Shown here in pieces: positions 5,249 to 42,805 of a stretch of DNA of 48,535 nucleotides. Numbering within the stretch: the stretch's first letter is position 1; the number at the start of each line of letters is the position of its first letter. The notes beneath the pieces were generated by a model. That model made no database searches. It was not told the DNA's origin and was given only the letters and a program-made list of their open reading frames with translations. Made by a program: the position numbers and the translations under genes. This stretch comes from Leisingera thetidis (GTDB lineage Bacteria; Pseudomonadota; Alphaproteobacteria; Rhodobacterales; Rhodobacteraceae), in contig NZ_CP109794.1 in NCBI RefSeq assembly GCF_025857195.1, positions 1 through 48,535 of the forward strand, in the 5' to 3' direction.

Positions 5249-5353
5249 GAAGGCCGGCTGTGAAAGTGTGGTTGTGAACGGCTGCGCCGCAGGCGATACT
5301 ATGGAAGAAAGCACAGGCAATTACAAACCGCAGAAATGCGGGACAGGCAGACA
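5249..5353. promoter_or_regulatory. Divergent control region of the capsule exporter genes
   Basis: About 100 bp separate the kpsM-like start (minus) from the kpsE-like start (plus). The stretch is less GC-rich than its surroundings (GAAAGTGTGGTTGTGAACGG, then GGCAATTACAAACCGCAGAA). No clear -35/-10 pair can be fixed by eye. The call rests on gene arrangement. Confidence 0.4.
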
Positions 5354-6850
5354 ATGACACAGGACAGCCAGGCGCCCGCGGCAGACCGCTCAGAGCCGCA
5401 GGAACCGGAGGAAACAGGACGGGCCCGCGCGGGCAAGCCGCGGGGCGGCCGCAAGCGGCGGCGCGGCGGCGCGGCCGCGGAGCCGGTGGAGCTGCGGCCG
5501 CAGCAGCCGGCCGCGGAGACCGAGGCGGAGGCGGCGGAGACGGCCGCGGACGGGGCCGCGGCGGACGCCGGGGACGGCCCGGACGCCGGGGACGCGCCGC
5601 CGCAGCCGGGCAGGTCCCGCGGCCGCCGCCAGAAGAAGAAGCTGCGCAAATGGCGCAGCCAGGCCCGGGCCGCGCTGGCCGAGCTGGAGGCGGTGCGGGA
5701 CCAGCAGCCGGCCTTCCCGGTGGCCCGCTCCGCCCATATGAAGCGGCGGCACTGGGGACTGGCGGCCAGCTTTGTGCTGATGGTGCTGGCGCCGCTGGCG
5801 GCCACGGTGTTCTACCTGTTTGCGGTGGCCGGCGATCAGTATGCCTCCACCGCCGGCTTCACCGTGCGCAGCCAGGAAAGCTCCGGCGCCAATGACCTGC
5901 TGGGCGGGCTGGCCAGCTTTGCCGGCAGCAGCACCGCCTCCGACAGCGATATCCTGTATGAGTTCATCCAGAGCCAGGAGCTGGTGGCGGCGGTGGAGGC
6001 GCGCACCGGCCTGAGAGCCCATTATTCCGGCCGCTGGCCGCAGGACTGGGTGTTTGCGCTGTGGCCGCGGGCCACGATGGAGGATCTGACCTGGTACTGG
6101 CAGCGCATGGTGCGCATCGCCTATGACGGCGGCTCGGGGCTGACCGAGGTGCAGGTCACCGCCTTCGATCCGCAGATGGCGCAGGCGATCACCCGCGCCA
6201 TCGTCGAGGAAAGCCAGATCCGCATCAACGCGCTCAACGACCAGGCCCGCGCCGATGCGATGCGCTATGCCGAGGCCGATCTGGCGGAGGCGCTGGAGCG
6301 GCTGAAAGGCGCCCGCGAGGCGCTGACCCGGTTCCGCACCCGCACCCGCATCGTCGACCCGGAGGCTGACATCCAGGGCCGCATGGGGGTGATGAACAAC
6401 CTGCAGCAGCAGCTGGCCGAGGCGCTGATCGAATACGACCTGCTGGCCGGCTCCGTGGCGCCGGGCGACGTGCGGCTGAACAAGGCGCAGCAGAAGATCG
6501 ACGTGATCCGCGCCCGCATCGACAGCGAGCGCCAGACCTTCGCCTCCAGCAACACCGACACCGGCGGCGTCGGCGAGGACTACCCGTCGCTGATCTCGGA
6601 ATACGAACGGCTGACGGTGGACCGGGAATTCGCCGAGGAGGCCTACCGCGCGGCGCTGACGGCGCTGGAGGCGGCGCGCGACGATGCCGCCCGCCAGAGC
6701 CGCTACCTGGCCAGCTACATCACCCCGACCCTGGCCGAGGCGGCGGAATACCCGCGCCGCCATGTGCTGAGCGCGCTGATCGGGCTGTTCCTGCTGCTGG
6801 TCTGGGCGATCCTGGTGCTGATCTTCTATTCGATCCGCGACCGCAACTGA
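5354..6850 (+). CDS. kpsE: Capsule export inner membrane protein (KpsE/BexC type)
   Basis: 498 residues from ATG 5354; an in-frame ATG at 5336 would add six residues. KpsE-type polysaccharide co-polymerase proteins link the ABC exporter to the outer membrane channel. The first 125 residues are unusual: a cytoplasmic Ala/Pro/Arg/Glu-rich tail with basic patches (GRSRGRRQKKKLRKWR). One membrane helix follows at about 133-160 (LAASFVLMVLAPLAATVFYL), then a long periplasmic region with Wzz-like character (DQYASTAGFTVRSQE) and coiled coil at about 280-440. A second helix lies near the C-terminus (LFLLLVWAILVLIFYSI), ending SIRDRN. The kpsT-like ATPase starts 16 bp downstream. Confidence 0.88.
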   Translation: MTQDSQAPAADRSEPQEPEETGRARAGKPRGGRKRRRGGAAAEPVELRPQQPAAETEAEAAETAADGAAADAGDGPDAGDAPPQPGRSRGRRQKKKLRKWRSQARAALAELEAVRDQQPAFPVARSAHMKRRHWGLAASFVLMVLAPLAATVFYLFAVAGDQYASTAGFTVRSQESSGANDLLGGLASFAGSSTASDSDILYEFIQSQELVAAVEARTGLRAHYSGRWPQDWVFALWPRATMEDLTWYWQRMVRIAYDGGSGLTEVQVTAFDPQMAQAITRAIVEESQIRINALNDQARADAMRYAEADLAEALERLKGAREALTRFRTRTRIVDPEADIQGRMGVMNNLQQQLAEALIEYDLLAGSVAPGDVRLNKAQQKIDVIRARIDSERQTFASSNTDTGGVGEDYPSLISEYERLTVDREFAEEAYRAALTALEAARDDAARQSRYLASYITPTLAEAAEYPRRHVLSALIGLFLLLVWAILVLIFYSIRDRN

Positions 6851-6866: not shown

Positions 6867-7526
6867 ATGGCACAGATCCGGTTCGAGAACCTGACCAAGA
6901 GCTTCCGGCTCAAGGGCGAGCGCAAGGTAATCGTCGACAACCTGAACCTCACCCTGCCGGAGGGCAAGTCGCTGGCATTGCTGGGCCGCAACGGGGCCGG
7001 CAAGTCGACGCTGCTGCAGATCATCGCCGGCACCCTGCATGCCGATTCGGGGCGGGTGGTCTCGACCGGCACCCTGTCCTGGCCGGTGGGGCTGTCGGCG
7101 TCGTTCCACAAGGACCTGACCGGGGCGGAAAACGTCCGCTTCATCGCCCGCATCTACGGGGTTGACTGCGACGACCTGGTGGCCTTTGTCGAGGAGTTCG
7201 CCGAGCTCGGCAAATCCTTTTACATGCCGATGCGCAGCTATTCCTCCGGCATGCGCTCGCGGCTGACCTTCGGGGCGTCGATGGGGATCCGCTTCGACAC
7301 CTATCTGATCGACGAGGTGACCGCGGTGGGCGACAAGTCGTTCCGCCGCAAGAGCCGCGAGGTCTTTGCCGACCGGATGAAGCTGTCCAGCGCCATCATG
7401 GTGACCCATTCGATGAAGCAGGTGCGCGAGTTCTGCAACGCCGGCCTGGTGCTGGAAAAGGGCGAGATGCGCTATTTCGAGGACCTGGAGGAGGCGATCG
7501 CCGTGCATGAGGCGATGCTGGCCTAG
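6867..7526 (+). CDS. kpsT: Capsule polysaccharide ABC exporter, ATPase (KpsT/Wzt type)
   Basis: 219 residues. It powers the KpsM-like permease. Walker A is GRNGAGKS at residues 40-47. The signature region is YSSGMRSRLTFGASMG, as in KpsT, in place of the usual LSGGQ. Walker B is TYLIDEVTAVGD, and the switch histidine is in MVTHSMKQ. The length fits the short KpsT class without the C-terminal carbohydrate-binding domain of Wzt, so chain recognition by the ATPase is not expected. It is in an operon with the kpsE-like gene (16-bp gap) and ends 24 bp from the stop of a convergent Stealth gene. Confidence 0.93.
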   Translation: MAQIRFENLTKSFRLKGERKVIVDNLNLTLPEGKSLALLGRNGAGKSTLLQIIAGTLHADSGRVVSTGTLSWPVGLSASFHKDLTGAENVRFIARIYGVDCDDLVAFVEEFAELGKSFYMPMRSYSSGMRSRLTFGASMGIRFDTYLIDEVTAVGDKSFRRKSREVFADRMKLSSAIMVTHSMKQVREFCNAGLVLEKGEMRYFEDLEEAIAVHEAMLA

Positions 7527-7550: not shown

Positions 7551-9137
7551 CTATTCGGCGGCCAGGCTGGCGCCGCCGGCGGCGGCCGGGACCTCCTCGG
7601 CGATCGGGGTCGGGAAGCGGTTTGCCAGGAACAGCGGGATCTCCCGGTTCCACACCTCGTCATTGTGGCTGTCGCCGCCGTCATTGAGGCAGAAGGTGCG
7701 GATCTTGCGGCCTTCCTCCAGGGTCCGCAGCTCGCGCTGGATATCCGGGGCGGTGTTCTTGAGCAGCCGGCTGCGGTAGGCGATCCGGGTGCCGGCGCCG
7801 GTGGCAAAGGCATAATGGTGGAACAGGAAGGACACGGTGGAGACATCGCCGGCCGAGCGGAACTGCGCCTGCCGGGTGCGTTCGAAGGCCTCCGGGAATT
7901 CCGCTTCCATCTTCTCCAGCACTGATTTCTTCAGCGCATAAGGCGCGTGCTTGTGCAGCCGGGACGGCACCAGCCCGAAGCGGCGGCGCATCAGCTCGGC
8001 GCCGTTGCGGGCGGCGTTGAGGTAATCCTTGTCCTCGGCGCGCAGCGCCCCGTTGACCACGCCGTAATCCTCGAGGTTGGCGTTGCACTGGCCGTTGGCG
8101 GCAAAGAAATAGGCCTGCGGCAGCGGCTCGTTGATGAAGAAATCGTCGTTCAGATAGAGGAAGTTCTCCGCCAGCCCGGGAATCCGGTGCAGGAAGCTTT
8201 CGATCGCATGCGAGTTGAAGGTGGGCAGGCAATGCGCCGGGATCACCTCCGTGTGGTCGACCCAGACCAGCCGCTCCGAGGGCTCCAGCCACTCCGGCGG
8301 CGGGCAGTTGGAAAACACGAAAATACGGTTGATCCAGGGCAGGTAGCGCTCCACCGAGCGCAGCGAATAGCGCAGCTCGTCGCGGTTGGTGAACCGGGCC
8401 AGGCTGCGGGCGTCGGCCTCATGCTCGGCGGCCTCCTGGGCGATGCCCTTGGCCGCGGCATGCATCGCCTGCCAGCCGGGATCGCCGTTGTTGACCCAGG
8501 TGTAGACCAGGTCCACCGGCGCGCGCGGCGCCTCATCCGGCAGGCCGTCCAGCAGGTCGCTGCAGCGGTGCAGCCCGGGACGGTCCAGGACGCCCTGCAG
8601 CGAGGCGTGGATATGGCGCAGGAAGCGGTTGCTGCTGTCGCGGCTGTCGGCCTTGTCCTCCTGCTGGAAGTAGAGGCTGGCCTGCAGCCGGGTGGTGAGC
8701 CCGGCGGGCCAGCACAGGGTCATCTGCCGCCGCGGCTGGCGGCCGCGGGCGGGGTCCCATTGCAGGGGGCTGCCGAGGCTGGCTTCCAGCACCTCCCGGA
8801 AGGCCGCCAGATCCTCGGCGCGCAGCCCCAGGTGCAGGTCGTTGCCGCGGCTGGCCGGGAAGACGATCACGGCCATCTCCCGGGCCGCCGCCGTCACCGC
8901 GGCGCTCAGCCGGGCGGCGGCGTCGGGGCTGGAGAAAAACGCATCGCCGCCGAAGGCCGGGGTCCGGCTGAGCGCCGGGATCTGCGCCGCCACGCTGTTG
9001 CCGGGGCGGAAGCTGCGGCCTTGCGGGGCGGCGCCGCCGCGGCCGGCGTTCAGCCGGCAGTACAGGCGGCGGGCCATCGGGCCAAGCAGCGGAACCGGAA
9101 GGATCAGGGCCCGGAGGCGGCGCTTGAAATTCGGCAT
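7551..9137 (-). CDS. Stealth-family sugar-phosphate transferase 1
   Basis: 528 residues. Stealth proteins transfer a hexose-1-phosphate from a nucleotide sugar and build phosphodiester-linked capsules (known from CPS phosphotransferases and the GlcNAc phosphotransferase family). The four conserved regions are visible. CR1 is VDLVYTWVNNGDPGWQ, starting at residue 208. CR2 is FTNRDELRYSLRSVERYLPW, followed by IFVFSNCPPPEWL. CR3 is HRIPGLAENFLYLNDDFFI with the DD pair. CR4 is SFLFHHYAFATG. The N-terminal 200 residues are a variable domain with no recognised motif. A second family member, 12920-14431, lies 4 kb away on the opposite strand. The product is probably cytoplasmic or membrane-peripheral, with no clear signal peptide. 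Confidence 0.88.
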   Translation of the reverse strand: MPNFKRRLRALILPVPLLGPMARRLYCRLNAGRGGAAPQGRSFRPGNSVAAQIPALSRTPAFGGDAFFSSPDAAARLSAAVTAAAREMAVIVFPASRGNDLHLGLRAEDLAAFREVLEASLGSPLQWDPARGRQPRRQMTLCWPAGLTTRLQASLYFQQEDKADSRDSSNRFLRHIHASLQGVLDRPGLHRCSDLLDGLPDEAPRAPVDLVYTWVNNGDPGWQAMHAAAKGIAQEAAEHEADARSLARFTNRDELRYSLRSVERYLPWINRIFVFSNCPPPEWLEPSERLVWVDHTEVIPAHCLPTFNSHAIESFLHRIPGLAENFLYLNDDFFINEPLPQAYFFAANGQCNANLEDYGVVNGALRAEDKDYLNAARNGAELMRRRFGLVPSRLHKHAPYALKKSVLEKMEAEFPEAFERTRQAQFRSAGDVSTVSFLFHHYAFATGAGTRIAYRSRLLKNTAPDIQRELRTLEEGRKIRTFCLNDGGDSHNDEVWNREIPLFLANRFPTPIAEEVPAAAGGASLAAE

Positions 9138-10282: not shown

Positions 10283-11173
10283 GTGAAGACGTTTCTTTTG
10301 GGCGTGGGCTGCCAGAAGGGCGGCACCACCTGGCTGCACCGGTATCTGAGCATGCATCCGGCCTGTGACTTCGGGTTCCGCAAGGAATACCATGTTTTCG
10401 ACGCGCTCTGGATCCGGGGCGCCAAGACCGGCAAGTTCTACCGCTCGGCGCTGGCCGACCTGGCCCGGCGGGCGCGGCGCCAGGCCAAGCGCCAGGACCG
10501 CGAGACGGTGGAGCGCAGCGGCAAGGCGGCGCTGCAGCTGCAAAAGGCGCTGCAGCATGTCTCCTTCTATACCGATCCGGAAAACTACGCCGATTATTTC
10601 GACTGGCTGCACGGCTCCCGGCCGGGGCTGCAGCTGGTCGGCGACATCACCCCCTCCTACAACGGGCTTCCGGCGGAGAAATTCGCCGCCATCCGGGAGA
10701 TGCTGGAGCGCCGCGGCTTCCGGGTGAAGGTGATCTTCCTGATGCGCGACCCGGTCGAGCGGATCTATTCCGCCACCCGGATGCGGATCCGCGACCAGCA
10801 GGGCAAGCCCGGCAAGCAGGGCAAGGAGCCGCTGGCCTTCTTCAACAAGCGCTTTGCCTGGGGCGATGTCGAGATGCGCACCCGCTACGAGCACACCTTC
10901 GGCGCCCTGGACCAGGCCTTTGCCCCCGAGGATGTGCTTTACGGCTTCTACGAGACCCTGTTCACCGATGCCGAGGTGCGCCGGATCACCAGCTTCCTCG
11001 GGCTGGAGTACATCGACCCGGATTTCGAGGCCCAGGTGAATGCCTCCCCCCGCACCGCCGAGCTGGACAGCGGCAGCATTGCCAAGGTGCGCAGCTATTA
11101 CGACGCCACCTACCAGGCCGCCATGGCCCGGTTCGGAGAGGACCGTATCCGCGCCATCTGGCCCCACGCCTGA
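10283..11173 (+). CDS. Sulfotransferase domain protein 1
   Basis: 296 residues with a GTG start and GGGGACAAAAGG upstream. The enzyme would move sulfate from PAPS to a sugar hydroxyl. The 5'-phosphosulfate loop GVGCQKGGTTWLHRYLSMHP is at residues 7-26, and the 3'-phosphate-binding segment is VIFLMRDPVERIYSATRMRI. A YEHTFGALDQAF / YGFYETLF segment follows, and a C-terminal dimer-type region ends the chain, as in heparan-type sulfotransferases. There is no signal peptide, so sulfation would be cytoplasmic. It heads a plus-strand run of five genes (10283-15246). The next gene, after 54 bp, is another sulfotransferase-like protein. Confidence 0.85.
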   Translation: MKTFLLGVGCQKGGTTWLHRYLSMHPACDFGFRKEYHVFDALWIRGAKTGKFYRSALADLARRARRQAKRQDRETVERSGKAALQLQKALQHVSFYTDPENYADYFDWLHGSRPGLQLVGDITPSYNGLPAEKFAAIREMLERRGFRVKVIFLMRDPVERIYSATRMRIRDQQGKPGKQGKEPLAFFNKRFAWGDVEMRTRYEHTFGALDQAFAPEDVLYGFYETLFTDAEVRRITSFLGLEYIDPDFEAQVNASPRTAELDSGSIAKVRSYYDATYQAAMARFGEDRIRAIWPHA

Positions 11174-12121: not shown

Positions 12122-12923
12122 CCCGGCGGCGGCCGGGGCTTCCGCCGCCGCGCCGCTGGTCTCGGTGGTGATGCCCGCCTACAACGCCGCCGCGGTGCTG
12201 GGCCGGGCGGTGGCTTCGGTGCGGGCGCAGACGCTGGCGGACTGGGAGCTGCTGATCGCCGATGACGGCTCGCGCGACGGCACCGGCGCGCTGGCCCGCG
12301 CCGAAGCCGCGCGCGAGCCGCGCATCCGGGTGCTGGCGCTGCCGGAAAACCGCGGCGCCGCGGCGGCGCGCAACCTGGCGCTGGCGGCGGCGCGCGGCCG
12401 CTACATTGCCTTTCTCGATGCCGATGACACCTGGCTGCCGCAGAAGCTGGCGCGGCAGGTGGGCTGGATGCAGGCCGAAGGCATTGCCTTCAGCTACACC
12501 AGCTACCTGCGCGGCGACGGCCAGGCCTGGAGCCTGCGGCGGGCGCCCGCCAGCGTCACCCGCCGCCAGCTGCTGCGCGGCAATGCGATCGGCTGCCTGA
12601 CCGCGGTCTGCGACCGGCAGATGCTGGGCGATTTCACCATGCCGGGCTTCCGCCGCCGCCAGGATTACGCGCTGTGGCTGCAGCTCTTGCGGCGGGTGCC
12701 GCAGGCCCATGGGCTGGACGAGCCGCTGGCCTGCTACTGGCGCGAGAAGGGCCGCGCCAGCCTGTCCTCCAACCTGCTGAAGGGTGCCCGCGGCACCCTG
12801 CAGGTCTACCGCGAGCAGGAGCAGCTGTCCTGGCCGCTGGCGCTGTGGTGCCTGCTGCGGCACCTGTCCCGGCATCTGCGGCCGCGCCGCCGCCGGCCGC
12901 TGCCGCCGGGGGCGGCGCCATGA
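12090..12923 (+). CDS. GT2-family glycosyltransferase
   Basis: 277 residues. The GT-A fold signature is plain: VSVVMPAYNAAAVLGRAVAS near the N-terminus, QTLADWELLIADDGSRDGT, and the metal-binding FLDADDTWLPQKL (DxD). FRRRQDYALWLQLLRR carries the ED-like acceptor region typical of WcaA/EpsE-type transferases. No transmembrane segment is seen. The C-terminus is very Arg-rich (RHLRPRRRRPLP), probably for membrane contact. The start lies inside the preceding gene (32-bp overlap), and the stop overlaps the next start as ATGA. It would add one sugar to the repeat unit; donor unknown. Confidence 0.88.
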   Translation: MNTTPLSSRADPAAAGASAAAPLVSVVMPAYNAAAVLGRAVASVRAQTLADWELLIADDGSRDGTGALARAEAAREPRIRVLALPENRGAAAARNLALAAARGRYIAFLDADDTWLPQKLARQVGWMQAEGIAFSYTSYLRGDGQAWSLRRAPASVTRRQLLRGNAIGCLTAVCDRQMLGDFTMPGFRRRQDYALWLQLLRRVPQAHGLDEPLACYWREKGRASLSSNLLKGARGTLQVYREQEQLSWPLALWCLLRHLSRHLRPRRRRPLPPGAAP

Positions 12924-14431
12924 CCCGGCTGCCGCTGGCAGACCACCTGCTGGCCGCGCTCGGCAACCCGGCGCTGGCCCGGGAGGCCGCGGGCAAGCTG
13001 CTGGCGCGCCGCCGGGGCCGCCGCCGCCCGGAGGCCCCGGCGGCCCCGGCGGCGCTCGGCCTGGCGGCGGCGGACGGCTGCGGCCGCCGCCTGGTGGCGG
13101 CGCTGGCGGCGCATCTCGGGGTGCTGCGGCTGGCCGATGACGGCTGGCGGCAGTGGATCGGCGTCTCCGCCGCCAGTTTCGCGCCGGTGCTGCAGGCGCT
13201 GCAGCAGGCGGCCCCGGAGGCCAGCCTGCACCCGCTGGGCCAGGCCGGGCGGCTGACCCCGGGGCAGGCGCTGAAGGCGGGGGCGCTGCGGCTGCGGCTG
13301 ACCGGCCGGGCGGGCAGCGCGCTGATCGACCTGGAGCGCTATGAGCCGCGCGGCCCCGGCCATTGGGTCTCGGCCAATGCCGCCAATGCGGTGGCCCGCG
13401 CCCTGTTCAGCGACTGCCTGGAGGCCCCCGGGCTGCAGGAGGCGGAGCAGCTGGCGGGCGCGCCCTCGCCGGAACAGCTGCGCGACCGGCTGCCGGTGGA
13501 TCTGGTCTGCACCTGGGTCAGCCATGCCGATCCCGGCTGGCAGCAGCTTTATGCCGCCCATGCCGGCAGCTACCGCGGCGGCACCGATGCCGCCGCGATG
13601 ACCCGGTTCCACAGCAATGACGAGCTGCGCTTCCTGCTGCGCTCGGCGGCCTGGAACCTGCCCTGGCTGCGCCGCATCCATGTGGTCAGCAACTGCGCCC
13701 CGCCGGACTGGCTCGACCGCGGCCATCCCGGGATTGCCTGGGTGGACCATGCCGCGGTGCTGGCGCCCGCCGACCTGCCGACCTTCAACTCGCATGCGAT
13801 CGAGGCCGGGCTGCACCGGATCCCCGGCCTGAGCCGCCGGTTCCTCTATGCCAATGACGACATGTTCTTCTGCCGGCCGCAGGAGAAGGCGGGTTTCTTT
13901 GCCGCCAGCGGCGCCTCGCTGGCCTTTCTGGAGCCCGGCGCGATGGCCTGCGGCGCTTTGGCCCCGGCGGCGCCGGACTACCTGAATGCGGCGCGGGTCT
14001 CGGCCGGGCTGCTGCAGCAGGTGTTCGGGGTGCGGGTGGCGCGGCTGCACCAGCATGTGCCCTATGCGCTGAACCGGGAGCTGCTGCGGGAGATCGCCGA
14101 ACGCTTCCCCGATGCCATCGCCCGCACCCGCGCCAGCCGCTTCCGCAGCCCCGGGGATGTCAATATGACCAGCTTCCTCTACCACCATTACGCGCTGCTG
14201 CAGGGCAAGGCGCAGGAAGGCCGCATCGAGGCGGTGTTCGCGCGCTCCAGCGACCTGCGCTGGCGGCAGCAGCTGGAGCGCGCGCGGCGCCGCGGCTGCG
14301 ATGTGCTGTGCCTCAACGAAGGCGGCACCCGGCCGCCGGGCCGCGACTGGCACCGCCACAGCCGCCGCTGCCTGCAGCGGATGTTCCCGCATCCCGCCCC
14401 CTGGGAACGGGCGTCCGGAGCGCGGCCATGA
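12920..14431 (+). CDS. Stealth-family sugar-phosphate transferase 2
   Basis: 503 residues from the ATG that overlaps the preceding stop (ATGA). The conserved regions are CR1 VDLVCTWVSHADPGWQQ from residue 193, CR2 FHSNDELRFLLRSAAWNLPW with HVVSNCAPPDWLD, CR3 AGLHRIPGLSRRFLYANDDMFF, and CR4 NMTSFLYHHYALLQGK. It is a paralogue of the 7551-9137 protein with the same layout and a variable N-terminal part, but the two diverge enough to suggest different donors or acceptors (inference). An extra GC-rich Arg/Ala stretch at residues 25-50 is low complexity. Its position between two GT2 genes in a tightly overlapping operon suggests all act on one polymer. Confidence 0.88.
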   Translation: MTRLPLADHLLAALGNPALAREAAGKLLARRRGRRRPEAPAAPAALGLAAADGCGRRLVAALAAHLGVLRLADDGWRQWIGVSAASFAPVLQALQQAAPEASLHPLGQAGRLTPGQALKAGALRLRLTGRAGSALIDLERYEPRGPGHWVSANAANAVARALFSDCLEAPGLQEAEQLAGAPSPEQLRDRLPVDLVCTWVSHADPGWQQLYAAHAGSYRGGTDAAAMTRFHSNDELRFLLRSAAWNLPWLRRIHVVSNCAPPDWLDRGHPGIAWVDHAAVLAPADLPTFNSHAIEAGLHRIPGLSRRFLYANDDMFFCRPQEKAGFFAASGASLAFLEPGAMACGALAPAAPDYLNAARVSAGLLQQVFGVRVARLHQHVPYALNRELLREIAERFPDAIARTRASRFRSPGDVNMTSFLYHHYALLQGKAQEGRIEAVFARSSDLRWRQQLERARRRGCDVLCLNEGGTRPPGRDWHRHSRRCLQRMFPHPAPWERASGARP

Positions 14432-25739: not shown

Positions 25740-26588
25740 TTATCTGCCCGCCATATCAGGCTCTAACAAGGCCCATTCCGCCGCCATCTCTGCCGGATCG
25801 GCCGCTGCCAGCGGCGCCGGCAGCAGCGCCTGCAGGCGGGCAACGTCCAGCGCCACCTGCGGGATTGCCGCCGCCGGGGCCGGGCGGGTGGCAAAGGGCA
25901 GGCCCGCCGCCTGCAGAAGCGCGCCCATCGCCACCGGGCCCGGCTGCGCCACATTCAGCACCGGCGGCAGCGCCGGCGCGGCCAGCAGGGCGCCCAGCAC
26001 CCGGGCCAGGGTCTGCACGCCGATATAGCTGCGCCGGGGGGTAGCGCCATCGGCGAAACGGTCCAGCGCAAAGCCCTCCCGCCAGCCGCCGAGAATGGCA
26101 TCCAGCCCGGCGATATTGCCGATCCGCAGGGCGCAGACCGGCACGCCCAGCGCCGCCCCCAGCGCCGCCGCGCGCGCCTCCATCTCCGCCTTGGCGGCGC
26201 CATAGGCATTGGCGGGCTGCAGTGCCGCGTCCTCTGCCAGCAGGCCGCCCCGGGCGCCGTAGACCGCCGCCGAGGAGGCCAGCAGCACCCGGGCGCCGGC
26301 CGCCGCCGCCGCCCGCACCGCCGCTTCGCCGAGGCGGATATGGTCTGCCATGTCTGCGCCGCTTCTGCCCGGCACCGGCCCGGCCAGGCAGAGAACCGCC
26401 GCCGTGCCCTCCGCGGCCCGCGCCAGCGCCGCCGGCTCCGCCAGCGGATCGAAGACGTGCCAGCTGCCGGGACCGGCCTGCGCCCGCCGCGCCTGCAGCC
26501 GCAGCCGCAGCCCGTCCGGCGGGACCAGCTGCAGCAGCCGCCCGATCCGCCCTGTTGCGCCCAGAACCATTGCGGCGGGATTCGCCAT
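25740..26588 (-). CDS. NAD(P)-dependent epimerase/reductase (extended SDR)
   Basis: 282 residues from the ATG at 26588 (MANPAAMVLGATGRIGRLL), with AGGAACGGG upstream; longer upstream starts lack support. GATGRIG is the nucleotide-binding turn. LASSAAVYGARGG contains the catalytic Ser region, and YGAAKAEME holds the YxxxK pair. ALRIGNIAGLDAILGGW and RRSYIGVQTLARVL fit the sugar epimerase type. The substrate is unknown; a nucleotide-sugar 4-epimerase or 4-ketoreductase is likely. It is followed on the same strand by the phosphoglycosyl transferase (19-bp gap), so both probably act on the first sugar of the chain (inference). It is divergent from the Wza-type gene. Confidence 0.8.
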   Translation of the reverse strand: MANPAAMVLGATGRIGRLLQLVPPDGLRLRLQARRAQAGPGSWHVFDPLAEPAALARAAEGTAAVLCLAGPVPGRSGADMADHIRLGEAAVRAAAAAGARVLLASSAAVYGARGGLLAEDAALQPANAYGAAKAEMEARAAALGAALGVPVCALRIGNIAGLDAILGGWREGFALDRFADGATPRRSYIGVQTLARVLGALLAAPALPPVLNVAQPGPVAMGALLQAAGLPFATRPAPAAAIPQVALDVARLQALLPAPLAAADPAEMAAEWALLEPDMAGR

Positions 26589-26714
26589 CTCTGCTGCCCG
26601 TTCCTGTTGAACCCTCTGCCCCAGCCCAGTATCCTTTGCCCGGACAAAAATCAAAGCGGTTCCCCCGGACAGACGCCGCGGCGGACCCCAGAGCGCTTCA
26701 ATGACAGGCATCCG

Positions 26715-27833
26715 ATGCTGAAACTTCTTCCCTGGCTGGCCGCTGCCGGCCTGATCCTTCTGCCCGCTGCCTGTTCCCGCCTGCCCGGCGGCGCCCCCGC
26801 CAGCGAGGAGATCCTGAAGGAATCAGGCGAGGCGGATGCCGATTTCGCGCTCTACCGGGTGAACCGGGCGCTGCTGCCGGCGGTGGCGGCCTGGCCGCCG
26901 ACCGGCAAGCAGGAGCGGCTCAGCTGGCTGCCCGCCCATCAGGGCGCCAAGACCCAGATCATCCAGCCCGGCGACCAGCTGTCGTTGAGCATCTGGGACA
27001 GCAACGACAATTCGCTGCTGACCTCGGCGGGCCAGAAGATGGTGCAGCTGCAGGACATGAAGGTGGCCGCCAACGGCGCCATCTTCATGCCTTATGTGGG
27101 CGATGTGAACGTCAACGGGCTGACCCCGGACCTGGCCCGGGCCCGGCTGCAGCAGGCGCTGGAGCCGGTGGTGCCGTCGGCCCAGGTGCAGCTGGCGATG
27201 GCCGAGGGGCGCGGCAATTCGGTCGACCTGGTCTCCGGCGTCGCAACCCCCGGCACCTATCCGATGCCGGACCGCAACTACACGGTGATGGGGCTGATCT
27301 CGGCCGGCGGCGGCATCAGCGCCACCCTCAACAACCCGCAGATCCGGCTGGTGCGCGGCCGCAGCATCTATGGCACCTCGGTGGACAATCTGTTGAACAA
27401 TCCCCGCCTCGACACCCTCTTGCGCGGCGGCGACCGGGTGTTCGTCGAGGAGGACGAGCGCTATTTCCTCTCCTTCGGCGCCACCGGCGAGGAGGATCTG
27501 CACATCTTCACCAAGGACGAGATGTCGGCGATGGATGCGATGTCGGTGGCGGGCGGCTTCCAGGACGGCAAGGCGGATCCCAAAGGGCTTTTGATCCTGC
27601 GCGAATACCCGGCCGGCGCGGTGGCGCCCGGCGTGCGCGGGCCGCGCCAGCAGCGGGTGGTGTTCTCGCTCGACCTCACCTCCGCCGACGGGCTGTTCTC
27701 GGCGCGCCAGTTCCAGATCAACCCGGGCGATCTGGTGATGGCCACGGAATCGCCGGTCAACGACGTGCTGACCATCTCCAACATCTTCGGCAATTTCTTC
27801 GGCGTGTTCAGCCGGGCGGGGGTGATCGACTGA
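26715..27833 (+). CDS. Wza/KpsD-type polysaccharide export lipoprotein
   Basis: 372 residues. A lipoprotein signal MLKLLPWLAAAGLILLPAAC puts the Cys at position 20. The polysaccharide export (Poly_export) domain follows: IIQPGDQLSLSIWDSNDN, then VAANGAIFMPYVGDVNVNGL and ARARLQQAL. A SLBB-like domain holds VDLVSGVATPGTYPMPDRNY, TVMGLISAGGGIS and LRGGDRVFVEEDERYFLSFG. The C-terminal end (FQINPGDLVMATESPVND, VLTISNIFGNFFGVFSR) is a likely amphipathic outer membrane helix. It would form the outer membrane channel for polymer exported by the KpsMTE-like set, more than 20 kb away. The start was chosen on the signal peptide and the ATG at 26715. Confidence 0.92.
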   Translation: MLKLLPWLAAAGLILLPAACSRLPGGAPASEEILKESGEADADFALYRVNRALLPAVAAWPPTGKQERLSWLPAHQGAKTQIIQPGDQLSLSIWDSNDNSLLTSAGQKMVQLQDMKVAANGAIFMPYVGDVNVNGLTPDLARARLQQALEPVVPSAQVQLAMAEGRGNSVDLVSGVATPGTYPMPDRNYTVMGLISAGGGISATLNNPQIRLVRGRSIYGTSVDNLLNNPRLDTLLRGGDRVFVEEDERYFLSFGATGEEDLHIFTKDEMSAMDAMSVAGGFQDGKADPKGLLILREYPAGAVAPGVRGPRQQRVVFSLDLTSADGLFSARQFQINPGDLVMATESPVNDVLTISNIFGNFFGVFSRAGVID

Positions 27834-27999: not shown

Positions 28000-30855
28000 A
28001 TGGACCAGGCTTCGGACGTCATTTCTCCTGCCGCTTCCCAAACCGGCTGGCGCGCCGGCATGGATTTTCTGCAGGCGGCAGCGGAACGGCCCGACGCGCC
28101 GGCCTTGACGGTGGAGGGCCGCAGCTACACCTATGCGGAACTGCGCACCGCGGCCCAGGCGGTGGCGGCGGCGGTTGCCGCCCGCGAGGCCGAAGGCCAG
28201 CAGCCGGTGGTCGCCTTTTATGCCCACCGCGGGCTGGCCAGCTATGCGGCGGTCCTGGGGGCGCTGCTGCGCGGCTGCGCCTATGTGCCGCTGAACCCGA
28301 AATTCCCGGCCGAGCGCAATGCCGCGATCCTGGCCCGCTCCGGCGCCGCCTTCCTGGCCCACCGGCCCGCCGATGGCGCCGTTGCCGCCGCCATTCTGGA
28401 GGCGGCCGGCACCGCGGCGCAGCGGCTGGAGCTGGGCGCGGACATGCTGGCGGCGGGCAGTGCCGGGCCGCTGCCCGAAGCGCGCCGCGACAATGCCTAT
28501 GCCTATGTGCTGTTCACGTCCGGCAGCACCGGGGTGCCCAAGGGGGTGGCGATCCGGCATGCGAACCTGCAGGCCTATCTCGACGCCGTCTTTGCGATGA
28601 CGGATTACGGCCCCGGCGACCGGCTCAGCCAGAATTTCGATCTGACCTTCGATCTGTCGGTGCATGACATGTTTGTGGCCTGGCGGGCCGGCGCGCATCT
28701 GGTGGTGCCCTCTGCCGCAGACCTCGAGAACCCGGCGGAATATGTCCGCGCCCATCAGCTGACCTGCTGGTTCTCGGTGCCGACGCTGGGTCAGAAGATG
28801 CTGCTGCAGGGCGCGCTGCAGCCCGGCGCGCTGGCGGGTCTGCGGCTGTCGCTGTTCTGCGGCGAGGCGCTGCCCGGCGATCTGGCCGAGGCCTGGGCCA
28901 AGGCCACCGGCCAGCGGGTCGAGAACTGGTACGGGCCGACCGAGGCGACGATTTCCTGCACCTGGTACCGGATCCCGGCCGGCGGCAAGGCCGCCGGGCA
29001 GGCCGGCCTGGTGCCGATCGGCGCCGCCTTTCCCGGCATGGAGACGCTGATCGCCGGCGAGGGCCTGGCCCCGGTGGCCGAAGGCGAGTCCGGCGAGTTG
29101 CTGGTCAGCGGCCCGCAGGTTGCCGATGGCTATCTCAACGACCCGGAAAAGACCGCCGCCGCCTTTGTCCGGCGGCCGGCGGACGGCAAGCTCTACTACC
29201 GCACCGGCGACCGGGTGAAGGCCGGGCCGGACGGGCAAATCCAGTTCATCGGCCGGATCGACAACCAGATCAAGATCCGCGGCTACCGGGTCGAGCTGGG
29301 CGAGATCGAGGCCCGGCTGCGCGCCGCCAGCAACGGGCACAACGCCATCGCCGTGCCGCTGCCGCTGAACGCGCCGAACCCGACCGCGCTGGCCGCCGCC
29401 ATCGAAGGCTACAGCGGCGATGAGAAGGCGCTGCTGGCGGCGGCGGCGGAAACGCTGCCGGACTACATGACCCCGTCGCGGCTGATGTCCTTTGCGCAGT
29501 TCCCGCGCAATGCCTCGGGCAAGATCGACCGCGGCGCGGCGGGCGCGCTGCTGGCCGCCGCGCTGGAGCAGGGCAGCGGCGGGGACGGGCCCGGGCGCCG
29601 GGGCGAGAAGCGGCGCCGCAAGCTGATCGCGATGATCCGGAAGATCAACCCGGCGATCGCGGCGGAGGACATCCTGTCGGCCGGCAACCTGATGGACGCC
29701 GGGCTCGACAGTCTCGGCTTTGTCACCTTCACGGTGGAGCTGGAAAAGGCCTTCGGGCTGGAGCTGGACCAGCAGGGCGTCAGCGCGCTGTCCTACCTGC
29801 CGCTGAGGAAAATCGCCCGGCTGCTGGCCGAGCGGCGCAAACAGAACAAGGCGCTGCTGGCGGCGGCCGGACGCAAGAAGGCCGGCGGCAAGACGGGCGG
29901 CGGCAAGAAGGCGCTGCGCAAGGCCCGGGGGCTTGACCTCAACGGCGCCGCCGCCGCCGCAGGCATCAAGACCGGCGGCCGGAAAGCCGGCAAGGGAAAA
30001 GCCGGGGGGAAAACCGGGGCGGATCTGCACGTGCGCGGCCAGCGGGCGATCAATTTCATCGAGACCTTTCCCGCGCTGGTCCGCGCCGCGGACAAGCCGC
30101 TGGCGCTGTTTGCCGGCTCCTCCGGCTTCCTGCGCGGCATTTCCAGCCAGGACATCGAAGCCCGCGCGGCGGCGCACGGGCTGGAGATCTGTGCCGCCAA
30201 TGCAGGCATCGGCGCGCTGAGCGTGGAAGGCATTGCCCAGCTTTGCGAATTCACCCGCGACACCCTGAAGGCAGCCGGCAAGCGGCTGCACTGGGGGGTG
30301 GCGGAACTGGACCCGATGCACCTCAGCGTGCTGCCGCCGGCCGGGGATCTGGAAATCGTGCAGGACTATCTGGCCGGCCGGATCAAGGCGCCGGCCGCCG
30401 GCGGCGGCGGCGACAGCCTCTGGACGCTGGAAACCCGCGGCACCCTGAGCCCGCGCGGCACGGCAGCGGCGGCCCCGGCGGAACCGGACTGGATGAAGCG
30501 GCGCAACGCGGAAATCCGCGACATGTTCCTGGGCCAGGTGGCGGTTGACGACAGCGCCGTCCTGACCTGGCTGCGCGGGGTGCGGGCGCTGGCAGAGGTG
30601 TCAGACCATCTGGCCGTGGCCATCCACCCGCTCAACCACCCCTCGCTCGGGGCGGAGCGGGCGGCGCAGGAGAGCGATCTCTACGCCGTGCTGCTGCAGG
30701 AACTGGGCGCCGAGCTGGGCCTCACCATCATCGACGATCAGGCGTTTGAGCTGGCGGCCGATGACTTCCTCGACAAGAACCATGTCAACTGGTGGCAGGG
30801 CAGAGAGAAATTCTCTGCCCAGCTGGTCGACCGGATCATGGCTCAGAGCGTGTAG
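28000..30855 (+). CDS. Adenylation-carrier-SGNH fusion (DltA-DltC-DltD-like)
   Basis: 951 residues in three parts. Residues 15-525 are an AMP-forming adenylation domain: FTSGSTGVPKG at 172-182, FDLTFDLSVHDMFVAW, LSLFCGEALPGD, ENWYGPTEATIS, YRTGD, GRIDNQIKIRGYRVE and the catalytic NASGKIDRG. Residues 540-605 are a carrier protein, with the phosphopantetheine serine S571 in DAGLDSLGF. A Lys/Gly/Ala-rich linker follows at 610-670. Residues 675-951 look like an SGNH/DltD-type acyltransferase: G706-S707-S708 in FAGSSGFLRGI and D925-K-N-H928 in FLDKNHVNWWQGREKF. The FDLS Asp and the FCGE.LP motif resemble D-alanine ligase DltA. No membrane helix is seen. It would load and transfer an amino-acid-like acyl group to a sugar (inference). 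No DltB-type protein is encoded in the window. It overlaps the convergent sulfotransferase by 13 bp. Confidence 0.8.
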   Translation: MDQASDVISPAASQTGWRAGMDFLQAAAERPDAPALTVEGRSYTYAELRTAAQAVAAAVAAREAEGQQPVVAFYAHRGLASYAAVLGALLRGCAYVPLNPKFPAERNAAILARSGAAFLAHRPADGAVAAAILEAAGTAAQRLELGADMLAAGSAGPLPEARRDNAYAYVLFTSGSTGVPKGVAIRHANLQAYLDAVFAMTDYGPGDRLSQNFDLTFDLSVHDMFVAWRAGAHLVVPSAADLENPAEYVRAHQLTCWFSVPTLGQKMLLQGALQPGALAGLRLSLFCGEALPGDLAEAWAKATGQRVENWYGPTEATISCTWYRIPAGGKAAGQAGLVPIGAAFPGMETLIAGEGLAPVAEGESGELLVSGPQVADGYLNDPEKTAAAFVRRPADGKLYYRTGDRVKAGPDGQIQFIGRIDNQIKIRGYRVELGEIEARLRAASNGHNAIAVPLPLNAPNPTALAAAIEGYSGDEKALLAAAAETLPDYMTPSRLMSFAQFPRNASGKIDRGAAGALLAAALEQGSGGDGPGRRGEKRRRKLIAMIRKINPAIAAEDILSAGNLMDAGLDSLGFVTFTVELEKAFGLELDQQGVSALSYLPLRKIARLLAERRKQNKALLAAAGRKKAGGKTGGGKKALRKARGLDLNGAAAAAGIKTGGRKAGKGKAGGKTGADLHVRGQRAINFIETFPALVRAADKPLALFAGSSGFLRGISSQDIEARAAAHGLEICAANAGIGALSVEGIAQLCEFTRDTLKAAGKRLHWGVAELDPMHLSVLPPAGDLEIVQDYLAGRIKAPAAGGGGDSLWTLETRGTLSPRGTAAAAPAEPDWMKRRNAEIRDMFLGQVAVDDSAVLTWLRGVRALAEVSDHLAVAIHPLNHPSLGAERAAQESDLYAVLLQELGAELGLTIIDDQAFELAADDFLDKNHVNWWQGREKFSAQLVDRIMAQSV

Positions 30856-31748
30856 CCGTAGCGCTCCGCCGCCGGAAAGGTGATCTCTTCCGCCATCCGG
30901 TGGAGATCGGCGTGCCGGGCATCTTTCCAGCTGTCGGCGGCCTTGATGGTGATGTCTTCGGCGCGCGCCTTCAGCACCCCTTCATTGGCCGGCGGGAACA
31001 GGTGCAGGTCGTCCCAGGACACCTTGGCCTCCGACCCGCTGGTGAAATTGGCGGTTGAGCTGTCCCGCCCGGCCCAGGCCAGGATCTCCCGGATGGTGTC
31101 GCGGGGGGCGGCGGTCAGATCCTCGTAGCGCAGCAGCTTGAAGCGCTCCGGGGCGGCGGCGCCGATGCGGGAAAACAGCTTCTGGCGCAGCCGCCATTCC
31201 CGGCTCTGGCCGCGCAGCCGCTTGATGTCGGACTGGCGCTTGGACCAGCTCACCGCCACCGCCCGCGGGTCGCGCACCAGGTTGAGCGTATACAGGGTGA
31301 CGGTGCCGGTCAGGCTCAGCGCATAGGCCTGTTCCGGGGATTTGGAGCTGTCGATCAGCATCCGCCCGCCGGCCGCTTCGGAAGCGGCGCCGTAAAGCTC
31401 CGAAAGGCCCGCAAGATAGGCGGCGTGATCCGCGCGCAGCCGGGCCTGCAGCCCGGCGTTGTTCCATTCGTGGTTGCCGCGGGCATCCTCCTTGAAGGCG
31501 GAATACCCCTTGGCCAGCCTGGGCAGCGCCCGCGGCTTTGCCAGCTTCCGCGTCACCTGCGACCAGAAGCTGCACTGGGCGAGCGGCCGCTGGCAGCTGC
31601 AGTCCGCTTCCCGGCGGATGGCCGCAGGCAGGTCGCGGATCTGGCCGATATTGCAGGTGTCCCCGTTCTGCGCCAGCAGCATGGACAAGAAGGTGGAGCC
31701 GGTCCGCCCGGAGCCGCCGATATAGAGCACTTCCGCTGTCATATTCAT
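30843..31748 (-). CDS. Sulfotransferase domain protein 3
   Basis: 301 residues from ATG 31748; two ATGs are close (MNM), and the first has GAGAG upstream. The PAPS loop is YIGGSGRTGSTFLSMLL near residues 8-24, and the 3'-phosphate segment is LNLVRDPRAVAVSWSKRQ. LLRYEDLTAAPRDTIREILAW is the family-typical second half. A CSCQRPLAQCSFW cluster of cysteines at about 50-62 is characteristic of a subset of these enzymes. It is on the minus strand after rfbA with a 181-bp gap and could belong to the rfb transcript. Its 3' end overlaps that of the A-T-SGNH fusion. It is more distant from the 10283 protein than a recent duplicate would be. Confidence 0.85.
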   Translation of the reverse strand: MNMTAEVLYIGGSGRTGSTFLSMLLAQNGDTCNIGQIRDLPAAIRREADCSCQRPLAQCSFWSQVTRKLAKPRALPRLAKGYSAFKEDARGNHEWNNAGLQARLRADHAAYLAGLSELYGAASEAAGGRMLIDSSKSPEQAYALSLTGTVTLYTLNLVRDPRAVAVSWSKRQSDIKRLRGQSREWRLRQKLFSRIGAAAPERFKLLRYEDLTAAPRDTIREILAWAGRDSSTANFTSGSEAKVSWDDLHLFPPANEGVLKARAEDITIKAADSWKDARHADLHRMAEEITFPAAERYGYTL

Positions 31749-31929: not shown

Positions 31930-32802
31930 CTAGCGCAGCAGCCCTTCCAGATAGGCGCCATAGGCGTTCTTGGCGAATTTATCCGCCTGGCGCTGCAGCT
32001 GCGCGTCATCGATCCAGCCCGCCTCATAGGCGATCTCTTCCGGGCAGCCGGTCTGCAGGCCCTGGCGCTCCTGCAGGGTGCGCACGAAATTGCCCGCATC
32101 CAGCAGCGAGCCGTGGGTGCCGGTATCGAGCCAGGCATAGCCGCGGCCCATGGTCTCGACCCGCAAGGCGCCCTCATTCAGGTAGCTTTGCAGCAGGTCG
32201 GTGATCTCCAGCTCGCCGCGGGGGGAAGGCTGCACGGCGCGCGCCCGCTCCGGCGCCGAGCCATCGAGGAAATACAAGCCCGTCACCGCGTAGTTCGACG
32301 GCGGAACGGGGGGTTTCTCGATGATCTCCCGAGCCTTGCCATCGGCGTCAAACGCCACCACGCCATAGCGTTCCGGATCGGCCACGTGATAGCCGAAGAC
32401 GGTGCCGCCCGATGCCTGCCCGTCTGCGGCGGCCAGCAGTTCCGGCAACCCGTGGCCGAAGAAGATGTTGTCGCCCAGCACCAGCGCCGCAGGCGCGCCC
32501 GCCAGGAACTCCTCGGCCAGGATGAAGGCCTGCGCGAGGCCATCGGGCGAGGGCTGCACCACGTAAGAGAGCGAAATCCCCCATTGGCTGCCGTCGCCCA
32601 AAAGGCGGATGAACTGCTCCTGGTCCTGCGGCGTGGTGATCACGCAGATCTCGCGGATGCCCGCCAGCATCAGCACGCTGAGCGGATAGTAGATCATCGG
32701 CTTGTCATAGAGCGGCAGCAGCTGCTTGGAGACCGCCATGGTGATCGGGTAGAGCCGGGTGCCCGAGCCGCCTGCCAGGATGATGCCTTTCCTTGCCGTC
32801 AT
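31930..32802 (-). CDS. rfbA: Glucose-1-phosphate thymidylyltransferase
   Basis: 290 residues. It makes dTDP-glucose from dTTP and glucose-1-phosphate, the first step of dTDP-L-rhamnose synthesis. The nucleotide-binding [16 protein letters not shown] and the sugar-binding [20 protein letters not shown] are present near the N-terminus. [18 protein letters not shown] and [11 protein letters not shown] are standard, and [13 protein letters not shown] with [16 protein letters not shown] closes the catalytic region. It is last of four rfb genes on the minus strand, and its ATG overlaps the rfbD stop by 4 bp. The length is the usual 290-ish. Confidence 0.97.
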
Positions 32803-33647
32803 GCCACTTCTCCCAAATCCTTCAAAATGTCATCCAGGCCCAGCCGCCAGTCCGGCTGCGGGAGCCCGAAAACAGACTCTAATGCAGAGCAATCAAGCCT
32901 GGAATTCAGCGGCCGCGCCGCAGGCGTTGGATAGGCGGATGTTGGAATATCCTCCACCGCGCAGGCAATTCCGGCCTGCCTGAAAATCTCCCGGGCAAAG
33001 CCCGCCCAGCTGGTCTGCGGCGCGCCTGCCAGATGATACAGCCCGGATTTTCCGGGATCCGCAATCAGCTGCCGCGCCATCTCCAGGCAGGCACCGGCAA
33101 TGTCGCGCGCCGGGGTCGGGGCGCCGATCTGGTCGGCTACAATGGTCAGCCGCTCCCGCTCTTTTCCGAGGCGCAGCATGGTTTTCACGAAGTTATGCCC
33201 GTGCGCCGAGACCACCCAGGAGGTGCGCAGAATGGCATAGGCGCCGCCCGCCGCGCGCACCATCTTCTCGCCTGCCAGCTTGGAGCGGCCATAGGCGTTC
33301 AGCGGGGCGGCGGCGTCACCGGGCTGCCAGGGTGCCGTGCCGCTGCCGTCAAAGACGTAATCGGTGGAGACGGTGACAAAGGGGATGCCCAGTTCCGCGC
33401 AGGCCGCCGCCATCGCACCGGGGGCGGCGCCGTTGATCACGTTTGCCAGCGCCTCTTCTTCTTCCGCCTTGTCGACGGCCGTGTAGGCGGCGGCGTTGAT
33501 CACCGCCTGCGGCTCTGCCTCGCGGATGGCCGCGGCGCAAGCGCCGGGATCGCCCAGATCCGCCTGGTCCCGGCCCAGGCAGGTGACGCCGTCATGCGCC
33601 GCCAGTTCCCGCGCCAGCTGGCCGGTCTTGCCGAATACGAGGATCAT
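32799..33647 (-). CDS. rfbD: dTDP-4-dehydrorhamnose reductase
   Basis: 282 residues from ATG 33647 ([15 protein letters not shown]). It reduces dTDP-4-keto-rhamnose to dTDP-L-rhamnose. GKTGQLA is the NAD(P) turn. [14 protein letters not shown] is the family signature, [10 protein letters not shown] gives the Thr region, and YGRSKLAGE supplies the catalytic Yxxx[19 protein letters not shown] is also typical. It lies in the rfb operon, with a 76-bp gap after rfbB and a 4-bp overlap with rfbA. Confidence 0.96.
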
Positions 33648-33723
33648 ATGCGCTCTCCAAGCTGTTCCGCCCCGCGGCCCCCCCACCCGCGGCCGGGGAC
33701 TGCCCTCTGCGGCTTATCTGACG

Positions 33724-34788
33724 TCACGTCCCCGCACCCTTGCCGGTGCCCAGCCGCCGGCCGACACCGTCGCGGTCCTGCAGGGCGCGCCACCAGCTCT
33801 CGTTGTCCAGATACCATTGCACGGTGCGCTCCAGCCCTTCCTCGACCGTGACCGAGGGCCGCCAGCCCAGCTCGTCGCGGATGCGGGAGGGATCGATCGC
33901 ATAGCGCGCGTCATGGCCCGGGCGGTCGGTCACGAATGTGATCTGGTCCTTGTAGGACTTGCCGTCTTCGCGGGGGCGCTTGGCATCCAGGATTTCACAT
34001 AAGGTCCCGACCAGCTCCAGGTTCGTGCGCTCGTTCTCGCCGCCGATGTTATAAGACCGCCCCAGCGCGCCCTTTTGCACCACCAGCAGGAGCGCATCGG
34101 CGTGGTCCTCGACATAGAGCCAGTCGCGCACGTTGGAGCCGTCGCCGTAGACCGGCAGCGGCTTTCCGGCCAGCGCATTGAGGATCACCACCGGAATCAG
34201 CTTCTCCGGGAAATGATAGGGGCCGTAGTTGTTGGAGCAGTTGGTCAGCACCACCGGCAAGCCATAGGTCTCGTGCCAGGCCCGCACCAGGTGGTCGCTG
34301 GCGGCCTTGGAGGCCGAATAGGGCGAGCGCGGATCATATGCGGTGTCTTCGGTGAACATCGCCGCGGGGTCGGCGGGCAGGCTGCCGTAGACCTCGTCGG
34401 TGGAGATGTGGTGGAAGCGGAACGCCTCCGGCCGCCCCGCCTGCACCCAATACTTGCGCGCGGCTTCGAGCATGTTGAAGGTGCCGGTGATATTGGTCTC
34501 GATGAAATCGCCCGGCCCGTCGATCGAGCGGTCGACGTGGCTCTCGGCGGCCAGATGCATCACCGCGTCCGGTTCATGGCGCGCAAAAACAGCGTCCAAG
34601 GCGGCGCGGTCGCGGATGTCGGCCTGCTCGAATGCGTAATCCGGGCTCTCTGCCGCCTCCGCCACATTTGCGAGACACGCGGCATAGGTCAGCGCATCGA
34701 GGTTCACCACCTGATGGCCGCGCGCCACCGCCAGCCGCACCACCGCCGAGCCGATGAAGCCCGCGCCGCCCGTGATCAGCAGTTTCAT
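33724..34788 (-). CDS. rfbB: dTDP-glucose 4,6-dehydratase
   Basis: 354 residues. It converts dTDP-glucose to the 4-keto-6-deoxy sugar. [15 protein letters not shown] is the NAD turn. [16 protein letters not shown] holds the catalytic Thr-Asp-Glu, and [15 protein letters not shown] holds Yxxx[18 protein letters not shown] and [19 protein letters not shown] are signature segments. [16 protein letters not shown] end motif is present as [29 protein letters not shown] precedes the ATG. It follows rfbC by 3 bp, so the two are translationally linked. Confidence 0.97.
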
Positions 34789-34791
34789 GCC

Positions 34792-35346
34792 TTATCCCTC
34801 CCACGCAAACGGGCTGCCGAAATCGGCCAGCCGCGGCGCCGCGGCGTCCTTTTCGCTCAGCAGCGGCGTGCCGCCGAAGCCCCAGCCGATGCCGCAGCTG
34901 TCCCAGGCCACCGCGCCGTCGCAATCGGGCGCATAATAATCGGTGCATTTGTAGATCACCTCGGTGTCCGGCACCCGTGTGATGAAGCCGTGCAGGAAGC
35001 CCTTGGGCACCAGGAGCTGCTTGCCGTTCTCCGCCGTGAGCTCGATGCCGAACCACTGGCCGTAAGAGGGCGAGCCCTTGCGGATATCCACCGCCACATC
35101 GAACAGGGCGCCCTGGCCGCAGCGCACCAGCTTGTCCTGGGCATGCGGCGGCGCCTGGAAATGCAGCCCCCGCAGGGTGCCCGCCTCGCGCGACAGCGAG
35201 TGGTTGTCCTGCACGAAGTCCAGCGCGATGCCGTGCTCTTCCAGCCGCCGCTTGCTCCAGCTCTCGCTGAAGAAGCCGCGCGCATCGCCGAACCGTGCCG
35301 GCGTCAGCACCTTCAGTCCCGGCAGTCCCGTCTCGTCTATCTGCAT
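34792..35346 (-). CDS. rfbC: dTDP-4-dehydrorhamnose 3,5-epimerase
   Basis: 184 residues from ATG 35346 (MQIDETGLPGLKVL); an upstream start 13 codons earlier is weaker. It is a cupin-fold epimerase. GDARGFFSESWSKRRL, QDNHSLSREAGTLRGLHFQ (with the catalytic His in RGLHFQ), VDIRKGSPSYGQW, LLVPKGFLHGF and YKCTDYYAPDCDGAVAW are the standard segments. It is the first gene of the operon rfbC-rfbB-rfbD-rfbA on the minus strand. It diverges from a GT4 glycosyltransferase gene with 131 bp between starts, which is the likely promoter zone for both. Confidence 0.96.
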   Translation of the reverse strand: MQIDETGLPGLKVLTPARFGDARGFFSESWSKRRLEEHGIALDFVQDNHSLSREAGTLRGLHFQAPPHAQDKLVRCGQGALFDVAVDIRKGSPSYGQWFGIELTAENGKQLLVPKGFLHGFITRVPDTEVIYKCTDYYAPDCDGAVAWDSCGIGWGFGGTPLLSEKDAAAPRLADFGSPFAWEG

Positions 35347-35477
35347 CGCACCCGTCCCGCCCTTGGGGTCATTCCGTTTGCCCACACCTAGCCCCGGGCT
35401 GGCGGCAGGGCAACAGCCCGGCGCTCTGCTGCGGCCCGCGCTTGCATCCGGCCGCGCTGCCCGGCAAGCATGTGTCC
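35347..35477. promoter_or_regulatory. Divergent control region, rfb operon / GT4 gene
   Basis: 131 bp between the rfbC start and the glycosyltransferase start. The stretch is GC-rich and no clear promoter hexamers can be fixed. The call rests on divergent gene starts. Confidence 0.35.
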
Positions 35478-42779: not shown

Positions 42780-42805
42780 TCCAGCCCTGGTTCAGGACAG
42801 CGATT

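Follow-up and report, generated by a model that had tools for sequence, protein, structure and literature searches.

In the AlmEFG system, which glycylates lipid A in Vibrio cholerae, an adenylation enzyme, a carrier and a transferase work on a glycolipid (PMC12930378). The mechanism of acylation pairs made of an MBOAT and an SGNH protein is treated in PMC12148441. Sulfazecin synthesis includes a step in which SulN sulfonates a peptide bound to a carrier (PMC11298585), and sulfated capsules with ATP-binding cassette (ABC) export have been proposed elsewhere (PMC11641403). Here we describe a gene from Leisingera thetidis for a single-chain protein, designated A-PCP-SGNH, in which an adenylation domain, a carrier domain (with S571), an Ala/Gly/Lys-rich linker and a C-terminal SGNH domain follow one another (Table 1). 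The gene lies in a stretch of 48,535 nt (contig NZ_CP109794.1), referred to as the window. A first-pass annotation had likened the protein to DltA-DltC-DltD; a widespread family, a specific sulfotransferase partner and a Kps-type exporter go beyond that annotation.

Domain architecture and protein family

The Pfam AMP-binding model matched residues 25-379 (233.7 bits), and the PP-binding model PF00550 scored 27.3 bits versus a cut-off of 20.8. AMP-binding_C at residues 437-508 stayed below its cut-off (16 versus 24.5 bits), and no Pfam match was found for residues 600-951 at E 10. The linker (residues 610-675) contains 16 Ala, 16 Gly and 13 Lys among 66 residues. Structure prediction of the C-terminal part, as suggested in the first-pass annotation, gave a model with pLDDT 93.4 and an SGNH fold; DltD (6o93) was among its structure matches and covered 233 of 276 residues, the most of all fold matches. 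The adenylation domain, S571, the linker, the GSS motif (706-708) and the DxxH motif (925-928) are all where they had been placed, and the Pfam domains together with the SGNH-fold model bear out the claim of three soluble functions on one chain. The assignment of catalytic residues held in part: D925 and H928, forming the Block V DxxH, are in place, but S708, the second serine of the GSS motif, is the likely nucleophile rather than S707, since its position fits the Block I serine. The sequence AAGGGA was found by eye upstream of the ATG.

In a search for relatives, 8000 candidates were scored and 5982 reached E 0.001, many of them perhaps via the adenylation domain alone; the best 120 were listed, with the window's own protein first. 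Among these listed matches, relatives have 38-81% identity, most across >95% of the length, and 116 of the 119 have 850-1000 residues and align throughout A-PCP-SGNH. The alignment had 117 rows (the window's protein and the 116 relatives, with P0023, P0044 and P0055 left out). Thirteen positions are invariant in all rows: S571, R682, G706, S708, N734, G736, E769, W808, G814, W831, R835, G845 and P877. Nearly invariant are S707 and H928 (116 rows each), H876 (114) and D922 (111). Because 116 full-length relatives align with these motifs conserved, the architecture is that of a conserved family and not a product of chance.

Two other interpretations of the gene were rejected: an antisense open reading frame (ORF) at 27808-30321 (837 aa), as the plus-strand protein has near-full-length relatives, and a peptide-synthetase fragment, because the C-terminal residues are conserved. 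Some relatives are named non-ribosomal peptide synthetase or amino acid adenylation protein by their sources. No paper on the fusion or its function was found in literature screened mostly by title and abstract opening.

The gene is uncommon, being present in 3 of 21 genomes of the genus and 7 of 394 genomes of a family sample standing for 393 genera (own genome counted in both). A class sample of 385 genomes had matches in 4, two of these being short and with E near 5e-4. A scan of genome contigs with two generic adenylation motifs was uninformative on the full architecture, as none of the 80 matches listed extends past residue 639. In one genome (G525, locus L113) the gene appears in two separate reading stretches and includes a series of unknown residues, so it may or may not be intact there.

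The amino acid adenylation model TIGR01733 was reached (358.6 bits versus a cut-off of 317.4), while the DltA equivalog TIGR01734 gave 271.5 bits versus 559.85. Pocket letters, placed via expected motif positions, are D218, L219, H222, F258, L285, C287, W310, I318, S319 and K508. Over the pocket region (residues 200-335) the first of 16 solved relatives was 4oxi (116.9 bits), followed by 6akd (81.1) and 8k4r (73.1); DltA entries scored 40.7-42.3 bits. Over the whole domain, 4oxi had 275.5 bits (best stretch 164-514) and DltA 3e7w 225.8 bits; LgrA entries top this list because the scores of two LgrA domains were summed (184 and 194 bits each in 6mfy). We take 4oxi to be AlmE with glycyl adenylate, an unconfirmed identity. 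Its title in the structure listing is 'Enterobactin synthetase component F-related protein', and the code 4oxi was not found in the available text of PMC12930378. Our best guess for the substrate is a small amino acid, with glycine as the top candidate. The proposed likeness to DltA-DltC-DltD stands for the carrier and the SGNH fold but not for the pocket, which is nearer to 4oxi (116.9 versus 41-42 bits).

Actual identity with DltA or DltD was not borne out: the DltD model PF04914 had no match to A-PCP-SGNH at E 10 and none in the genome. A true Dlt system was rejected on this result, the TIGR01734 score and the lack of a PF03062 match in the genome. A profile of the C-terminal domain (A1) had no match among PDB sequences or among the 8000 candidates of similar length that were scored in the protein collection; a PDB search with L104 gave no match. 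In genomes, the A1 search recovered distant SGNH proteins, and a profile match links the C-terminal domain to SGNH proteins encoded beside MBOAT genes. Three loci with SGNH proteins adjoining MBOAT genes are L119:8219-10844, L120:9561-12068 and L121:9518-12050; one of these proteins is distantly DltD-like and its named relatives include Pseudoalteromonas and Colwellia proteins.

Hydropathy gave no membrane helix in A-PCP-SGNH (top 19-residue Kyte-Doolittle mean 1.37; a mean >1.9 occurs in one of the 117 aligned rows). PF03062 (MBOAT, DltB-type) had no match in the window's genome, while 3 of 14 control genomes matched. It was likewise unmatched in 8 of the 10 carrier genomes, own included (one of the eight, G500, is 84% complete); in G013 and G023 the match is on another contig than the A-PCP-SGNH gene. 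The predicted cytoplasmic transfer without DltB, already put forward in the first-pass annotation, is supported by these results.

The partner sulfotransferase

Tail to tail with the A-PCP-SGNH gene lies the gene for a sulfotransferase that we call ST-B. Its start codon is uncertain; the long ORF, which reaches 32177, runs into rfbA. The ten carrier genomes contain 74 PF13469 matches. In eight of these genomes an unfused match is located within 0.4 kb of the A-PCP-SGNH gene, the expectation for a distance of 2 kb being 0.11 genomes. The nearest sulfotransferase in G013 and G023 belongs to a second group, ST-A, and ST-B is also near; in G525 the nearest unfused sulfotransferase is 10.9 kb away. 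G500 has two partial ST-B matches, one at a contig start just before the fused gene, which look like one gene split by a contig break. The ST-A domain is fused N-terminally to A-PCP-SGNH in five genomes, as in P0055; these proteins, of about 1210-1270 aa (L114-L118), join sulfotransferase, adenylation, carrier and SGNH domains.

We built a tree of 36 rows (32 of the 74 PF13469 matches, P0055 and three Phaeobacter sp. G2 proteins, with the G500 pieces left out). Ten carrier-locus rows, including 31065-31724 of the window, form the ST-B group with support 100/99 and none of the 15 background rows; the tree program warns of long branches, one of them where the ST-B group meets a background row. 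A search with the window's ST-B at E 0.001 gave some match in 6 of the 21 genomes of the genus and in 23 of the 394 of the family sample (at most six candidates scored per genome in the family search). Strong matches occurred in exactly the three genus and seven family genomes with the A-PCP-SGNH gene, a strong match being at least 142 bits and at least 38% identity, a line drawn post hoc at a gap (next best 75 bits, 30%). Fisher p values for co-occurrence are 7.5e-4 (genus) and 3.6e-15 (family), uncorrected for kinship or for the chosen line. Judged by sequence, ST-B is the specific partner of A-PCP-SGNH in the sampled genomes.

This partnership is the most informative new fact. It defines a module searchable in other genomes and suggests an undescribed way to decorate a surface sugar.

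Genomic surroundings

The window carries genes for Kps-type export, Stealth-type proteins and dTDP-L-rhamnose synthesis (Table 1), as well as YjbH and YjbF genes. In NCBIfam the KpsT-like protein scores best with exporters of teichoic acid or polysaccharide, at values below the cut-offs. Plus-strand ORFs at 31867-35388, 3338-4312 and 7947-9386 were rejected as wrong strand.

Table 1. Features of the window, with the A-PCP-SGNH gene and its domains first
Feature	Coordinates	Strand	Remarks
A-PCP-SGNH single-chain protein	28000..30855	+	ATG start, 951 aa
Adenylation domain, residues 25-508	28072..29523	+	
Carrier domain, residues 544-590	29629..29769	+	PF00550; S571 codon 29710-29712
Ala/Gly/Lys-rich linker, residues 610-675	29827..30024	+	
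SGNH domain, residues 676-951	30025..30852	+	S708 30121-30123, D925 30772-30774, H928 30781-30783; also G736, E769
Partner sulfotransferase ST-B	30843..31736	-	PF13469 44.3 bits; tail to tail with A-PCP-SGNH gene
Second sulfotransferase	10283..11173	+	PF13469 47.0 bits; near Stealth-type genes, outside ST-B group, tree place unsure
KpsM-like ABC-2 exporter permease	4412..5320	-	PF01061 34.5 bits; KpsM 86.5 bits, NCBIfam cut-off 300
KpsE/BexC/CtrB-like export protein	5336..6850	+	TIGR01010 217.1 bits, cut-off 437.5
KpsT-like ABC ATPase	6867..7526	+	PF00005 58 bits
Stealth-type protein, possible capsule phosphotransferase	7551..9137	-	Stealth CR1, CR2, CR3
Second Stealth-type protein	12674..14431	+	Stealth CR2, CR3
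Wza-type polysaccharide export protein	26340..27833	+	PF02563; start probably further in
dTDP-L-rhamnose genes rfbA, rfbD, rfbB, rfbC	31930..35385	-	Pfam; names by likeness to Leisingera record

Among 83 neighbour ORFs from nine loci, Sulfotransfer_3 was the most frequent family (7), and 2 ORFs fell to each of two glycosyltransferase families (among the 25 of 80 families listed); this tally may undercount glycan genes, since some ORFs chosen by length in L110 were on the wrong strand. ThiF and amidase genes occur at the G015 locus; at the G023 locus there are AMP-ligase and flavin enzymes, along with a glycosyltransferase.

The window, which lies on contig 8, has ParA-like and RepA-type genes, and the DNA of 26001-48535 matches Leisingera plasmids best; probably, therefore, this is a plasmid of the genus Leisingera. 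A search of the plasmid collection, from which close relatives of the window may be excluded, recovered the C-terminal domain in a single record, Phaeobacter sp. G2. Separately, RTX calcium-binding repeat proteins are encoded at 22479-25091 (+) and 40358-42739 (+), with type I secretion genes (ABC and HlyD; 42805-44679 and 44676-46097) adjoining the second.

Possible function and known systems

We consider the chances about even that A-PCP-SGNH is a cytoplasmic single-chain aminoacyl transferase for a sulfated, ABC-exported capsule, perhaps with glycine. The domains, the predicted fold, the conserved residues, the lack of an MBOAT match, the sulfotransferase partnership and the exporter genes are supported by sequence or by the model; which amino acid is used, the chemistry of every step, the nature of the acceptor and the action of both enzymes on one molecule are inferred. 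At the expense of ATP, the adenylation domain would activate a small amino acid, with glycine the likeliest, and load it onto the phosphopantetheine arm on S571. The SGNH domain would accept the aminoacyl group, probably on S708 with assistance from H928 and D925 or D922, and transfer it to a glycan, at a hydroxyl or an amino group; the dedicated sulfotransferase would modify the same product. For the window, we envisage as acceptor a capsule-like polymer that would be assembled within the cell and leave it through the Kps-type ABC transporter. Such an exporter would fit a cytoplasmic transfer site, and a polymer built inside and exported in this way would need no MBOAT shuttle across the membrane.

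Several observations weigh against this proposal. The D925 position has D in 86 and N in 31 of the 117 rows, and E769, at the end of the third strand, appears from its position to stand in place of the Block III asparagine that classical SGNH enzymes have. DltD ranks 47 of 50 by Z with the highest rmsd shown (5.0), and a DltD match is lacking in four of the five distant SGNH proteins. The glycine guess depends on 4oxi being nearest over the pocket and on the presumed AlmE identity of that entry. A diverged MBOAT could escape PF03062. As for export, relatives of KpsM, KpsE and KpsT are all below NCBIfam equivalog cut-offs, the set lies about 20 kb from the A-PCP-SGNH gene in the window, and it was seen in 4 of 11 loci (the window, Phaeobacter sp. 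G2, G013 and G525). Its absence from the other seven is weak evidence, since nine of the ten non-window loci are only 12-20 kb long and the window's set is itself some 20 kb off. Finally, neighbours in G015 and G023 are mostly non-glycan genes; the acceptor may differ between lineages.

These last two points also fit a small-molecule or lipid pathway, in which a carrier and adenylation pair of peptide-synthetase type would feed an SGNH thioesterase or transferase that releases an aminoacyl product for later sulfation. TesA-type thioesterases are among the fold matches of the SGNH domain, so hydrolysis is possible, and the names given to some relatives point the same way. Still, the window and Phaeobacter sp. 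G2 loci are rich in glycan genes, DltD has the widest residue coverage and the sequence kin of the SGNH domain adjoin MBOAT genes; we regard such a pathway as unlikely. The sulfotransferase might instead have the aminoacyl group as its substrate, either while this is bound to the carrier or once it has been transferred, producing a sulfated aminoacyl decoration. The SulN precedent, the fusion in cis in five genomes and P0055, and the persistence of the partnership whether or not glycan genes were seen close to the locus favour this possibility; the fused domain is, however, ST-A, another group than the obligate partner ST-B, and the sulfated, ABC-exported capsules proposed elsewhere also count against it. 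We think this rather improbable. A combination, with one-chain cytoplasmic transfer and sulfation of the aminoacyl group giving a sulfated aminoacyl substituent on the polymer, also seems unlikely. A Dlt-like route, with the aminoacyl group crossing the membrane via another carrier and transfer outside, could draw on DltD among the fold matches; as hydropathy reveals no membrane helix and MBOAT matches are lacking in 8 of the 10 carrier genomes (AT3 proteins not searched), we find it very hard to credit.

If the cytoplasmic transferase proposal is right, marine polysaccharides should exist that are both sulfated and amino-acid-bearing, a testable prediction, and the fusion offers a one-protein test of carrier-to-acceptor transfer.

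Among known systems, sulfazecin SulM with SulN likewise combines a carrier-bound substrate and a sulfotransferase, whereas SulM is a multi-module peptide assembly line ending in another thioesterase, with a catalytic cysteine (PMC11298585). PatA-PatB-type pairs resemble A-PCP-SGNH through the profile kin of its SGNH domain beside MBOAT genes; here no MBOAT partner was matched, and the fused carrier would be the donor. DltABCD likewise proceeds through activation, a carrier and an SGNH transferase, with DltD 6o93 as a fold match, but the genome has no DltB-type match, and A-PCP-SGNH has neither a membrane anchor by hydropathy nor a DltD-model match, its adenylation domain being far below the DltA cut-off. 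In the Dlt scheme an outside SGNH transferase relies on a membrane shuttle, whereas here the SGNH domain is soluble and fused to its would-be donor supplier. AlmEFG transfer takes place inside the cell, and the nearest solved relative over the pocket, 4oxi, is taken to be AlmE; an AlmE-like adenylation domain, the one feature of Alm membership compared, appears to be present. The differences are that the parts are on one chain and that the transferase is an SGNH domain, AlmG being an acyltransferase of another kind. With these differences, A-PCP-SGNH looks able, from its sequence, to work like Alm or Dlt aminoacylation.
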